64,000 bases of DNA from Saitoella complicata NRRL Y-17804 (taxonomy: Eukaryota > Ascomycota > Saitoellomycetes > Saitoellales > Saitoellaceae). Position 1 is the stretch's first letter. Each line of letters begins with the position of its first letter. Made by a program: the position numbers and the translations under genes. Below the pieces are notes generated by a model. It was not told the DNA's origin, did no database searches, and was given only the letters and a program-made list of their open reading frames with translations. Positions 1 to 10,069 of this stretch are shown here, in pieces. Where the stretch lies: the NCBI RefSeq assembly GCF_001661265.1, contig NW_017567021.1:1-64000 (forward strand). The letters run 5' to 3'.

Positions 1-128
1 AACCCTAACCCTAACCCTAACCCTAACCCTAACCCTAACCCTAACCCTAACCCTAACCCTAACCCTAACCCTAACCCTAACCCTAACCCTAACCCTAACC
101 CTAACCCTAACCCTAACCCTAACCCTAA
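1..128. repeat. telomere, (AACCCT)n
   Basis: Twenty-one perfect AACCCT units followed by AA, so the other strand ends in (TTAGGG)n, the common filamentous-fungal telomere repeat. It lies at the very start of the window and contains no variant units, which fits a true chromosome end. There is no subtelomeric spacer: the repeat joins coding sequence directly at about base 128. Confidence 0.98.
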
Positions 129-1396
129 GTCTCTTTAATCCTCGCAAACACTTCCATCTCCTCCTCCCCATCTCCCTGGATCCAACTCGTCCTCGCACTG
201 GGCCCTGACTCGAGATATGTGTATTTGTCAAAAACGAGCTCATGTGTACCGACTACGGGAATGCCCACGATGACGCTTGTAGCGATACTCGAACTGGCAC
301 GGTCGATCAGGTATTGGTTATGAGCGAACGCCGGAAAAAGAGCGGTAGCCCTCGAGGCAAAGGCCCAGTATTGATCGAAATCCAACTCCGGCACGATATG
401 GATAACATCTTGTAGATCTTCTGGGATGTCTGGTGGGGGTCCTGAGCCGAGAAGCTGAATCGAGGCGCCGTATTCGCGGATGAGGGAAAGGTGTTTGCGG
501 GTGTGTTCGAAAATCGTGTTGTAGTTTCGACGCCAGGGCTCGAATTTACCGGGGATGAGCGCGAATGGTTCCGGTGGAAGCTCGACGGCGCTCTTCTTGG
601 GAAAGAGAGGAGTAGGGTCGAAGACGGGAGGGAAGGCTGGGAGGAGACGAACGCTGCCCGGATGTCGTTCGGCAAGTGCGGGAGACGGGAAGTAGTCATT
701 CAACTTGATGGGCGAAGAAGTGACGTTCCAGGGTTCGTAAAAGTGTTCGGCAACGAATCGATGGACATGCTCCGACAGCACGACAAAGTTGACGCGTGAA
801 CGTTCTACCCAAGGCTGGAGAATCTTTCTCCAGGGCGACTCTGGATCCTCCCACTCCGGCGCTTCGTGAATGACGCAGACAATCTCGTGAGGAGAACTCG
901 GAGAGTCAGGGTTTGTGAACATGTCGCCCAAATCTTCGAGGTCGCGAGAGCAAGATGTCAGCACGGCGATGTCGGGCCTGTACATGAGCTCCGATGACCT
1001 CAACTCTTCCCACCGGCGCATGATGAGCTCCCCGGAAGCAGCTTGTTGAAGGAACGGTAACGCGTTCATTCGCTCCGCGGACGTATGGTTGACAAACAGC
1101 TCAAGCTGGGTGTGCGACGTATGCGAGAAAGCGTCAAGAAGAGGGATGACGACCTCGAAGTGGTATTTAGGCGTGTTGATGAGGGCGATGCGCATGTTCC
1201 TCTTCGACTTGCGAACAGCTGGAGCGTCCAAGTCGGTTGCAAACGGTGCTTCATAGCGAGAGACTGGTTCAAAGACGGAAGGCTTCCTTGTTGCAGCAAA
1301 CGACCATGAGGGCGAAAGCGTCAAGTAGATCAAGCACAGTAACGTCACTATGGTAGCGACGGTGAAGACACGGCGAGAATCCCTGCGAGCCAGCAT
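125..1396 (-). CDS. type II membrane GT-B-like glycosyltransferase, 3' end cut by the telomere
   Basis: A 423-residue frame with a short basic N-terminus, one hydrophobic anchor (about residues 11-29) and a long lumenal part. The segment near residues 350-395 (LFPAFAHNQYLIDRASSS, then GIPVVGTHELVFDKYTYL) resembles the C-terminal lobe of GT-B glycosyltransferases, so a Golgi glycosyltransferase is inferred; donor and acceptor are unknown. ATG at 1396 is chosen because it precedes the anchor. The gene has no native end: coding sequence reaches ...RIKE and the next codons use telomere bases, ACT then TAG, where TAG belongs to the first TTAGGG unit. Some residues of the original C-terminus were probably lost, and an mRNA would need to end inside the telomere. 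It is divergent from the gene at 1662. Function of the shortened protein is uncertain. Confidence 0.7.
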   Translation of the reverse strand: MLARRDSRRVFTVATIVTLLCLIYLTLSPSWSFAATRKPSVFEPVSRYEAPFATDLDAPAVRKSKRNMRIALINTPKYHFEVVIPLLDAFSHTSHTQLELFVNHTSAERMNALPFLQQAASGELIMRRWEELRSSELMYRPDIAVLTSCSRDLEDLGDMFTNPDSPSSPHEIVCVIHEAPEWEDPESPWRKILQPWVERSRVNFVVLSEHVHRFVAEHFYEPWNVTSSPIKLNDYFPSPALAERHPGSVRLLPAFPPVFDPTPLFPKKSAVELPPEPFALIPGKFEPWRRNYNTIFEHTRKHLSLIREYGASIQLLGSGPPPDIPEDLQDVIHIVPELDFDQYWAFASRATALFPAFAHNQYLIDRASSSIATSVIVGIPVVGTHELVFDKYTYLESGPSARTSWIQGDGEEEMEVFARIKET

Positions 1397-1661: not shown

Positions 1662-2923
1662 ATGCTCCGTACCCGTCATCCTGTCTTCATCGTGGGTGCC
1701 ATCACCCTTCTCGGTTGGTTGGTGTTCCTATATCACGCCATTCCAGAGGTATGTTACTTCCCGTACTGCTGAATGATGCTTATTCTGGTGTAGCACGCCT
1801 TCAGTGCTTTGCAGAGTGTCGACACGTCAACTGCGGTGACTGATGATACCGCTGTGACCGACGAAACTGTCCACCTCCTCATCCCGGCCACAGAACCCAA
1901 CAATCAATTCTGCCGCGTCCTCTTCTCCGCCCTCATCAACGACTACCCCTCTCCTTACCTCGTCAATTATGGCAAAAAGTACGACGACCCTGCGATCGCT
2001 CGTGCACAGAAAATCGCCGGCTTGAACGAGTACCTCCTCAAGTCAACCGTCAGCCGAAACGATACCATCATCATTGCCGATGGCTTCGATGTGTGGTTTC
2101 AGCTGCCACTGGATGTCATGGTCTCCCGATATCGGCTTGCTCAACAAAATGATACATCCCGAACCATTTTTGGTGCAGACAAGAAATGTTGGCCGAATGA
2201 TCCGAACTCGCCCGCGTGCACTCGCGCTCCACTGAGCTCCCTTCCAGATGGAGTGTATGGACCGGACACGGACCAACTGACCATTTATCGCGACCAGAAG
2301 GCAAAATACGATAACTTCCGCCCGCGCTGGTTGAATTCTGGTACCGCCATCGGTCCTGCTAGTTCACTGCATGCTATCTATGAAGAAGCCTGGAGGAGGA
2401 TTGAAGATAAGCAAAGCACCGTCAAGAGCGACCAGCGGATCTTGGCCGACGTCTGGGAGACGGTCTGGTCGATTTTCTGGTCGTAGATCACAGAAGCGAA
2501 TTATTCCAGACTCTGGGGTTTGCGCAAGCTGATGTCGCTTGGATCGTCAATCCAGATCCCGAGACCAGAGCAACAACTGCCAGTAACGATGATACGGGTC
2601 AAATGAGGTTGGAACTGGCTTCTCTGGGTATGGACATGGAGGAGAGGAGAGAACGGAGTGTATGGAAGGGAAGGCCGCTTGCTTGGAACAGGATCAGCAA
2701 CGCGATACCCTCGGTGCTACACTTTAACGGAGATAAAAATTACATGGATAGATGGTGGCATAAGATGTGGTGGAATGCGAAGGGTGGGGAGATTGCGAGG
2801 ACCTTCTTGGAAAGACTGGAGAGTGGTGATACTGAACTACTGGCAGAGATGCGGGCGGGTGCTTGGACCGAGGAAGGATGGGTTGACTGGAACGAGCTTT
2901 GCAGGAATTTTTCCATATTATAG
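1662..2923 (+). pseudogene. PLOD/LH3-like glycosyltransferase, frameshifted
   Basis: Exon 1 (1662-1748) encodes a 29-residue signal anchor, MLRTRHPVFIVG then ITLLGWLVFLYHAIPE. A 45-bp GTATGT...TAG intron (1749-1793) follows and exon 2 opens in frame at HAFSALQSV. The lumenal part contains IIIADGFDVWFQLPLD, like the acidic donor-binding strand of procollagen-lysine glucosyltransferase-type domains, and RPRWLNSGTAIGPA, like the following acceptor-side motif. Near 2455-2470 the frame changes: the first frame stops at 2486, while the continuing homology-like sequence (VVDHRSELFQTLGF ... VLHFNGDK) runs in another frame to TAG at 2923. No intron of plausible size with GT-AG ends restores the frame, so a one-base loss or two-base gain is likeliest. 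It could also be a sequencing error. If intact it would be a Golgi transferase; substrate unknown. Confidence 0.65.
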
Positions 2924-3047
2924 TTTGCTTTACTATTGCTTCAACATCAGCATGCGTGGATTGCCGGCGAAGCTGCACTGCTGTCCAGGACTATATGTTC
3001 GCCAATAATTCCCGTATACATACGGCTGAAACACCTCTAGAAAGCTT

Positions 3048-3059
3048 AAGGGTTAGGGT
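3048..3059 (+). promoter_or_regulatory. interstitial telomere-like motif (telobox)
   Basis: AAGGGTTAGGGT lies about 90 bp before the ATG at 3146. It carries one and a half TTAGGG units, in the orientation opposite to the terminal AACCCT array. Such teloboxes bind Tbf1/TRF-like factors in fungi; a role here is inferred from position only. Confidence 0.35.
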
Positions 3060-3145
3060 CTCGGAAAACGCCCTCCCGTTGTTGTTATATCTGAGGAAGT
3101 TATGTTCGTAGTTGTTGAATCACCAGCTGACAGGAGGTGGTAACA

Positions 3146-4432: not shown

Positions 4433-6631
4433 ATGGCAGACTTGTTCGAGAACGACCTCAGCTACGCGCAAGCACAAGAACTGAAGCGGCGACGGCGGAT
4501 CCTGCCAGAAAAGCGCAAGAGAGTCGTCAAGGCCTGTCAGCGCTGCAGAGACCACAAGCTGCGCTGTCAGGGGACACGGCCTTGCGACAGGTGTGCTCGC
4601 TCAAATACGGACTGCATATACCCCGTGTTGAGTGGATCGAACAATTCAGACGCGTATGTCGCAAAGCTGGAGGAACGCCAAATCTACCTCGAATATATGC
4701 TGCAACGGCATATACCCGGCTTGACACTGGACACGCCAAGTTTACGCTCGCTAGCGGAAAGTTACAAGAAGGAAGAATTCGGCGACCACGCAAGTGCGTC
4801 AGTCGAGGGCCGAGTGCAGCAGAAGCTGCTCAATGAGGATGAAGGCGTTCGAGATGTGTTGGATGGAAGAGCGCGTCTCATTGTGGAAAAGCAGGGTCAA
4901 ACGCATTACCTCGGCGAATCCGCTGGTTGGAGTTTCATCGACAGTATACGCGAATCGATCACGACGACCCCAGGCGAACTCGATGTCAGTGCTAGATATA
5001 ACACGTTCCTCGAGGAGAATGCGGATGAGGTGTTTGAAGAGATCAATGTTTCAGACCCAGCAGCGCTCCTTCCGCCACGACCTACAATGGATTTCCTGAT
5101 CAATACTTTCTTCCGGCACTGCCAAACAATGCTGTTATACACCCACGAGACTATCTTCCGGAAGAAACTCGGGCATTTACTCCACTCCCTCGGTAGCGAC
5201 CAGGAGGACACGATCTTCCTCTGCGTGTTGCTGATGGTGCTAGCCGTCGGCAGTCAATTCGCTGAATTAGAAACTCAATCACCAACACCGGATGCCGGCT
5301 TCTCCTATTACAAAGCAGCGCGGATGCTGCTCCCTCACGTTATCACCGCGTGCAAGATGAGTAGCGTGCAAGCATGCTTGCTTATGACCAGTTACCTGCA
5401 ATGGACGCGCCAGAGAGATGTGTCGTACGCGTATATGGGTATGGCAGTACGAATGGCGGTATCCAACGGAATGCATCGCCGGTGCAATGTGGCGCTGGAT
5501 CCGCGAGTGGTGGAAATTCGGACGCGTTTATGGTGGTCTATCTACACAAAGGATCGCTTTATGAATATGTCCATGGGTCGGCCCATGCTCTTTTCCGACA
5601 ATGATTGCGATCTGGAGCTGCCGAGATACTTGCCAGAGCTCGACGGCCCGAATTCTTCACCTGGCATTGATGTCATGCGAGCTAATACAGAAATGGCACG
5701 AATTCTCGGCCATATCATGTCGAGAATCTACACGCTACCAAAGGATGGACAGAAGAGCTCTTCAGTCAGTCGAAGCGCAATTGTGGAGCTGAAGCAAGAA
5801 CTATCGGCATGGAAGACGCGTCTCCCTTCACGACTACGGCATCAGAAGCCCGATCCCAAGAGTCAATTCTTCCGGGCTGAAGTGCATCTTCACCTGGGCT
5901 ACTACCAGGCAATCATCCTCATCACCCGCCCTTTCCTCCTCCATCTCGTCCGAACTCGTGGACCAACAAAACAAGCCGCCCCGTCAGCTGCGCCAGATCA
6001 AAATGCCGCCCTCATCGAGCAACTCGCTCTCAACTGCGTCGACGCCGCCCACGAAGGTATCAAGTTGATACAGAACCTTCAGAAACACAACAAGATCTGT
6101 CGCTTCGATTTCTGGGATTACCATTACTGCTGCGCCTGTGCGTATGTCATATTACTGAGAAACGTCATTCACGGGGATGATCCACGGGACCCCAAGGCGA
6201 TTCAATGTGCAATGGACGTGATGGAGTATATCGCGAGTGGCAATGATTCGGCCAAGCTGGCATTGGACCTGATGAGAGAGTTGCACGTCATTGTTCGGAA
6301 GAGGAGGAGTGGTGCGAAGGGCAAGGCTACAAAGGACGAGGTACAAGGATGGAGCGTGGCACCGGCATTGGTCCCAGCGTCCGGCTCTTTCGACCCATCT
6401 TTAGTACCGCTTGGCAGTATCTCAGAGTTTTCGGGAAGCTCCATCTCGCCAGTGCCGATCAATGACTTGGAGACGTTCGTTCACGAGGATATCTTGCCTT
6501 ACCAGGATAACGCGTACGACTCCAATAACTTCTTTCGTGTCTTTGGTATTGAGAACGTTAGTTTTCCAGAGTTGGGTGGGGAGTTTGGGTTTGGAGGTCA
6601 AGATGGTGGGACGTTTGACTGGGGGATTTGA
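4433..6631 (+). CDS. Zn2Cys6 transcription factor with fungal-specific middle domain
   Basis: Intronless, 732 residues. The binuclear zinc cluster is perfect: cysteines at 35, 38, 45, 51, 54 and 61 (CX2CX6CX5CX2CX6C), preceded by basic KRRRRILPEKRKRV. A linker and probable dimerisation segment (YVAKLEERQIYLEYML) follow. The fungal-specific transcription factor domain covers roughly residues 210-480, with RTRLWWSIYTKDRFMNMSMGRP as its signature region (quoted in part: RLWWSIYTKDRF). The C-terminus is Ser/Gly-rich and acidic, like an activation region. It acts in the nucleus. Its position next to three membrane-anchored glycosyltransferases suggests, but does not prove, that it controls them. 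No truncation or frameshift is visible. Confidence 0.88.
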   Translation: MADLFENDLSYAQAQELKRRRRILPEKRKRVVKACQRCRDHKLRCQGTRPCDRCARSNTDCIYPVLSGSNNSDAYVAKLEERQIYLEYMLQRHIPGLTLDTPSLRSLAESYKKEEFGDHASASVEGRVQQKLLNEDEGVRDVLDGRARLIVEKQGQTHYLGESAGWSFIDSIRESITTTPGELDVSARYNTFLEENADEVFEEINVSDPAALLPPRPTMDFLINTFFRHCQTMLLYTHETIFRKKLGHLLHSLGSDQEDTIFLCVLLMVLAVGSQFAELETQSPTPDAGFSYYKAARMLLPHVITACKMSSVQACLLMTSYLQWTRQRDVSYAYMGMAVRMAVSNGMHRRCNVALDPRVVEIRTRLWWSIYTKDRFMNMSMGRPMLFSDNDCDLELPRYLPELDGPNSSPGIDVMRANTEMARILGHIMSRIYTLPKDGQKSSSVSRSAIVELKQELSAWKTRLPSRLRHQKPDPKSQFFRAEVHLHLGYYQAIILITRPFLLHLVRTRGPTKQAAPSAAPDQNAALIEQLALNCVDAAHEGIKLIQNLQKHNKICRFDFWDYHYCCACAYVILLRNVIHGDDPRDPKAIQCAMDVMEYIASGNDSAKLALDLMRELHVIVRKRRSGAKGKATKDEVQGWSVAPALVPASGSFDPSLVPLGSISEFSGSSISPVPINDLETFVHEDILPYQDNAYDSNNFFRVFGIENVSFPELGGEFGFGGQDGGTFDWGI

Positions 6632-9551: not shown

Positions 9552-10069
9552 AGCACTTATGGTTTTGTAATGAGGGATGTTTTCAGCGCTGCGTGCTCAA
9601 TTGTATGGATGCCCCATTCATACTTGGCCTTGACCTGAGCCTGCTGATTGATACGCGTGCACGGAGGGACTTGATAGCTCCAGAAATCTCTCGGACAGGA
9701 CCTCTGGATGATATATATTATCTGGCAGTGGTTCATGATCTTATTTGGGATTGTAATCCATGATAATGTCAAGGATCGTAATCCACGAATTTGTCTGGGA
9801 TTTCTGCCAGGATGGTAATCCACAATGATCTGCGTAATCCACAGTTTTCACTTCTGCAGTATTGTCCAAAGCATGGATAATCACCATATACATGAGTATC
9901 ATCACTGCCGGCCAACAACCAGCCCCTGGAGTATGATGATCACAAATGTCTAAACCTAACTCTAGTGGTGCACGCAAAAACCACAACAATATCATGGATT
10001 CAACTGGAATTTGTCCAGGACCATGCATTCCATTATGGATTACCATCCTTGATATCATAATGAAATGGC

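Follow-up and report, generated by a model that had tools for sequence, protein, structure and literature searches.

A probable de novo telomere within a gene at the left end of a Saitoella complicata contig

Introduction

It has been known since the late 1980s that chromosome breaks within Plasmodium genes can be healed, and the Magnaporthe gene AVR-Pita is located tens of bases from a telomere. The present report deals with a gene that runs directly into the telomere at the left end of contig NW_017567021.1 (designated C30; 244,959 bp in length) of the ascomycete Saitoella complicata NRRL Y-17804 (assembly GCF_001661265.1); the gene is referred to below as the capped gene, and the window, i.e., the whole stretch of DNA analyzed, comprised positions 1 to 64,000 of this contig. 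Left and right ends of any contig Cn were labeled CnL and CnR, respectively, so that the junction under study is that of C30L.

The closest described systems included one protozoan and three fungi. In the reference genome of Plasmodium falciparum, five of 28 chromosome ends were healed, four of them inside var genes, and healing had a fixed start, with GGGTT as the first bases added in 9/9 events (PMC5550746). In Magnaporthe oryzae, de novo TTAGGG telomeres were found on truncated ribosomal DNA (rDNA) and on truncated MoTeR elements; of the 23 truncated MoTeRs, 17 carried a short seed, and C was the terminal base in five of the six seedless ones (PMC7367193). AVR-Pita was reported to closely adjoin a telomere (PMC3145791). 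In Zymoseptoria tritici lacking Kmt1, chromosome breaks were capped with TTAGGG, and 13 of the 28 analyzed breakpoints of duplicated regions were located in genes, the breakpoints not all being capped (PMC6510446). In Saccharomyces cerevisiae, hotspots of de novo telomere addition termed SiRTAs overlapped coding regions at 78% of 728 sites (PMC10055226, preprint); a stop codon supplied by the telomere was not described in the part of this preprint that was available. A literature search of limited coverage brought up no report of truncated genes directly at fungal telomeres.

Results

The C30L junction was composed of a perfect telomeric array (AACCCT, 21.3 units, 100% matches) at window positions 1-128 and a minus-strand open reading frame (ORF) at positions 125-1396, which encoded 423 amino acids (aa; C-terminal ...RIKET*) and entered the array with zero intervening bases. 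The minus strand read ...GAG ACT TAG GGT TAG... across the junction, where the T of ACT (base 128) and the whole TAG (bases 127-125) were telomere bases. An initial annotation made from the letters alone had described exactly this arrangement, i.e., an unbroken frame whose ACT and TAG used the first TTAGGG, and no subtelomeric spacer; both statements held. The features of the junction and the capped gene were as follows:

1..128, no strand assigned: array of 21.3 AACCCT units that forms the left telomere of C30 (minus strand, TTAGGG)
125..1396, minus strand: 3'-truncated single-exon ORF of 423 aa, of unnamed family and with two relatives on C10 (from translation, relatives, and codon usage)
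125..130, minus strand: final sense codon ACT (130-128) and stop codon TAG (127-125); the T of ACT and the whole TAG are telomere bases
128..129, minus strand: junction GAGAC TTAGGG, with C as the last unique base, as in 17 of the 22 terminal arrays beginning exactly TTAGGG (C30L included)
1316..1378, minus strand: hydrophobic N-terminal helix, residues 7-27 (from the sequence and a low-confidence structure model), likely a membrane anchor

The three frames of TTAGGG encoded Leu-Gly, an immediate stop, and Arg-Val, as had been stated in the initial annotation; because only one of the three stops at once, the stop at C30L would be a one-in-three chance outcome. The accompanying claim that the gene was capped rather than extended was true of this sequence but needed that qualification, the frame at C20L running on as Leu-Gly (see below).

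The whole genome (14.12 Mb, 34 contigs) was used for comparison, covering one assembly and the end state only, and 45 of its 68 contig ends were read (34 left and 11 right). As many as 23 of these 45 ends were read over 299-600 bases only, and the counts of boundary-crossing frames given below are lower limits for that reason; the frames at C2R, C4R, C5R, C6R, and C9R were still open where the 400-base read stopped and were left out of these counts. Telomeric arrays were present at 39 of the 45 ends, measuring 55-150 bp at the 38 telomeric ends other than C30L. That the repeats at C30L were joined to an unrelated contig end as an artefact of assembly or library preparation was judged extremely unlikely: the assembly does contain a telomere array that borders a gap of 66 N in C5, and at C23L 14 foreign bases lie outside the array, which lent it some color, but the C30L array was terminal on its contig, correctly oriented, and of a length (128 bp) within the range of the other ends, and the opposite end of C30 was also telomeric (122 bp). 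Because both ends were telomeric, C30 looked like a whole chromosome.

Compared with 20 other left ends (E <= 1e-10), the window shared only 101 bp, at positions 9741-9841, and therefore no captured subtelomere was recognized at C30L. The arrangement taken as the mark of chromosome healing, namely repeats joined directly to unique sequence without a subtelomeric spacer, was what C30L displayed. This observation also bears on telomere capture, in which the broken end would have been extended not by telomerase but by break-induced replication, after invading a TTAGGG tract on another chromosome and using it as template. Such an event would leave a product of the same appearance where invasion occurred within the array itself, and TTAGGG arrays were plentiful (39 of the 45 ends read); it was nevertheless considered improbable, since none of the other subtelomeres read had contributed sequence between the gene and the array and since the junction bias described below is more easily explained by telomerase priming.

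Two relatives of the capped gene, and no close copy, were found in the same genome, both on C10: (i) C10a (C10:455099-456127, L002, 443 aa), which aligned with capped residues 68-420 (28% identity, E 1e-36) and had 49 more residues beyond the aligned part, compared to three in the capped protein; and (ii) C10b (C10:444171, L003), which matched the capped gene directly at residues 140-224 only (E 3e-6) and, in a three-way alignment, had 51 residues past the point equivalent to the junction. C10b also aligned with residues 313-434 of C10a (E 1e-6), covering most of the C10a tail, so the tail absent from the capped gene was common to both relatives; the C10a tail had no second match in the genome. 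The capped gene was truncated relative to these two distant relatives. Searches elsewhere yielded no relative in viral contigs and, in bacterial and archaeal genome contigs, 38 pattern matches with none confirmed as a relative. The alternative that the present end of the gene is close to its natural one, with the telomere simply lying beside it, was rated very unlikely: the 423-codon frame was intact and free of internal stops, which is what a functional gene would show, and the relatives were too distant to place the original end exactly, but the closest relative was 49 residues longer, its tail aligned with that of the second relative, and the stop was built of telomere repeat, which means that no native stop remained.

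The coding character of the capped frame was evaluated by its length and codon usage. An open frame of 430 codons had a chance of ~1e-9 under uniform random codons. The codon-usage score was 0.075 for the whole capped frame and 0.184 for the 100 codons nearest the telomere, the highest part of the frame, compared to 0.114 (standard deviation 0.081, 257 segments) in presumed true frames and -0.135 (standard deviation 0.121) in wrong frames, these controls being the 42 training ORFs themselves and hence somewhat optimistic. The initial annotation had called the gene glycosyltransferase-like, and this label was not confirmed: the capped protein hit no Pfam family at E <= 1 and had no credible match in PDB, by sequence or by three-row profile, a known glycosyltransferase domain having been sought in both. 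A single-sequence AlphaFold model had a mean predicted local distance difference test (pLDDT) score of 35 and was not used for fold search; taken in blocks of 10 from residue 1, the scores were 52, 78, and 68, while confidence was very low elsewhere.

The boundary comparison was also applied to the other telomeric ends. Besides C30L, at least four more of the 39 displayed long coding-like frames crossing into the telomere, and two of these ends, C10L and C31L, were transposon-like: (i) at C18L, the telomere cut a phosphatidylserine decarboxylase gene, the front of which was missing and the last part of which remained (79% paralog at C5:24805; PF02666 match, E 6.9e-31, beginning 5 residues from the telomere and at position 61 of 198 of the profile); (ii) at C20L, a 489-codon frame (codon score 0.06) read on as Leu-Gly to the chromosome end and had no relative in the genome, so its truncation is read from the open frame and the codon score by themselves; and (iii) at C10L and C31L, the telomere cut repeated, transposon-like genes whose relatives had longer open frames (compared by length only), the C10L frame having a weak DUF4218 match (18.8 bits vs. 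a cutoff of 27) and 10 further genome matches, and the C31L frame having no Pfam match and 14 further genome matches.

Two more frames were possible truncations only, as judged from their sequence. The C29L frame (89 codons from ATG, 137 open codons) continued as Leu-Gly, had a weak match to gag-like DUF4939 (20.1 bits vs. a cutoff of 29) and a codon score (-0.03) between those of the controls, and was matched by relatives within its first 53 residues only; the plus-strand frame at C12L (345 codons) had a coding-like score but was of low complexity. Codon scores were non-coding for the antisense frame of C18L and for those at C11L, C12L (minus strand), C24L, C28L, C2L, and C9L, and these frames were not counted. 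Beyond coding frames, C6L started exactly at the junction inside an element that extended further out at C5L and C13L, C14L started at its junction with 119 bp found ~300 bp inside the C6L junction, and C21L and C23L contained the same sequence capped 7 bases apart; all of these look like truncations of sequences with longer forms in the same genome. Shared subtelomeric elements of about 100-360 bp were seen at C3L, C5L, C6L, C13L, and C14L and at C1L/C16L, and other ends joined sequence that had no counterpart at the ends compared.

The junctions were further compared for register and preceding base. The TTAGGG register was used at 18 of the 39 junctions read (P 2e-5 vs. an even spread over six registers). 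Among terminal arrays beginning exactly TTAGGG (22, after removal of two internal ones from 24 matches: C4:324984, after C, and C5:415017, after T), the preceding base was C in 17, T in five, and A in none (relative to base composition, P 6e-5 for the number of C and 2e-4 for that of A). A preceded 5/5 of the arrays starting GTTAGGG and stood two bases before TTAGGG in 14/23, both being post hoc patterns that are given as a lead only. There were 15 ends at which an additional three to five bases matched, compared to ~0.6 expected, as would be the case if short seeds prime too; a fixed start alone does not explain all registers. Four of the 18 TTAGGG-register junctions were preceded by GAGAC or GAGAT and a fifth by GAGTC (C1L, C30L, C27L, C29L, and C18L), and the sequences beyond these five similar junctions differed from each other; the common context may indicate base pairing with the telomerase RNA next to its template. 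A pattern search of the genome, using the template extended by the shared junction context, did not find the telomerase RNA: the pattern matched the ends C1L, C18L, C27L, C29L, and C30L and two internal candidate sites, C18:218760 and C27:211710.

Inward of the capped gene, the next two genes matched GT_PLOD (PF25342, 3.6e-10) and GT25 (PF01755, 1.2e-5). A duplication of these neighboring genes was considered and rejected, the GT25-like exon being without another copy in the genome. The GT_PLOD-like gene (window 1809-2486 plus 2603-2923, plus strand) was split over two frames, with a stop at about position 2484, and this may denote an intron that was not recognized, gene decay, or an error in the sequence. 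Further inward, positions 3047-3061 held a short internal AAGGGTTAGGG followed by TCTC (~1.8 telomere units, which may be chance), positions 4433-6631 encoded a putative Zn2Cys6-like regulator, and apparent short introns were seen by eye in the window. The introns and the putative regulator, like the TTAGGG repeats and the internal transcribed spacer at C17L (see below), are indicative of a fungal genome.

Elsewhere in the genome, telomere repeats were also found at two internal sites: (i) interstitial head-to-head repeats (GGGGTTAGGGTAACCCTAACCC...) at C4 ~324,960-325,010 (L072), which adjoined sequence resembling the C23L subtelomere by eye and look like an old end-to-end chromosome fusion; and (ii) a CCCTAA array in mid-C5 (C5:414,837-415,041, L073) right after the run of 66 N, which may be a scaffold join at a telomere or possibly a misjoin. 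C17L (L050) started with what appeared by eye to be the 3' end of 18S rDNA plus internal transcribed spacer, and because of this rDNA-like start, the rDNA array may sit at the left chromosome end of C17.

Discussion

The addition of a de novo telomere at an intragenic break, as proposed in the initial annotation, very probably accounts for C30L and explains it best. It predicts that relatives continue past the junction, that the join is direct without a captured subtelomere, and that like events occur at other ends: the closest relative in the same genome does continue, by 49 residues, the join is direct, and like events were found. The left arm of C30 would have come to end within the 3' part of the gene, either through a double-strand break or through erosion that started from an older, now lost end; telomerase would then have extended the 3' end ...GAGAC directly with TTAGGG repeats, no donor sequence intervening; everything distal, including some 50 codons as well as the native stop and 3' flank, would have been lost; and, by chance of frame, the first repeat would have given TAG, leaving a protein that ends ...RIKET. 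From the end product, we infer that a break occurred, that telomerase acted, and that distal DNA was lost.

Several points weigh against this account. Both relatives are remote (alignment identities of 31 and 24%), and C-termini can differ at such distances; the loss of a distal piece is deduced; the assembly is imperfect, as seen from the array beside 66 N inside C5 and the 14 bases outside the C23L array; and a T or TT seed after C would look the same as added bases.

After truncation by de novo addition, the capped gene would most likely be either a decaying relic or the maker of a C-terminally shortened protein, both being putative. A stronger version would hold jointly that the gene is expressed, with an mRNA ending in the telomere and the repeats serving as stop codon and transcript end of a working shortened protein, and that intragenic healing, with ...C (often AC or AG) as the preferred 3' end for priming, is a regular way of making chromosome ends and gene ends in this lineage; this combination was considered unlikely.

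C30L provides a clean natural example of telomere healing within a gene, and at least five of the 39 telomeric ends read, C30L included, have coding-like frames crossing the boundary. The compact ends and many chromosomes of this genome make the start site of telomerase on broken ends testable from sequence, and healing of this kind is one way in which genes near chromosome ends get lost or reshaped.

The case is a further one of a known process whose mechanism is well established, and its interest comes mainly from one genome showing several cases together with a junction bias. The same arrangement as at C30L has been described in P. falciparum, but that organism is a protozoan with before-and-after sequences for some events, while the commonest register here was TTAGGG after C, in a fungus and in the end state only (PMC5550746). 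The seedless ends of M. oryzae, mostly C, resemble most TTAGGG-register junctions of S. complicata; there, however, rDNA and telomeric retrotransposons were cut, some of the ends arising in culture, while here ordinary genes were cut too and the end state only was compared (PMC7367193). Z. tritici shares with C30L the capping of chromosome breaks with TTAGGG repeats, but those events came from a mutant in an evolution experiment and involved large rearrangements, compared to a single genome here (PMC6510446). At the SiRTAs of S. cerevisiae, telomerase acts at internal breaks, as proposed for C30L, but SiRTAs are TG-rich stretches, whereas the C30L junction GAGAC is without such a stretch (PMC10055226).
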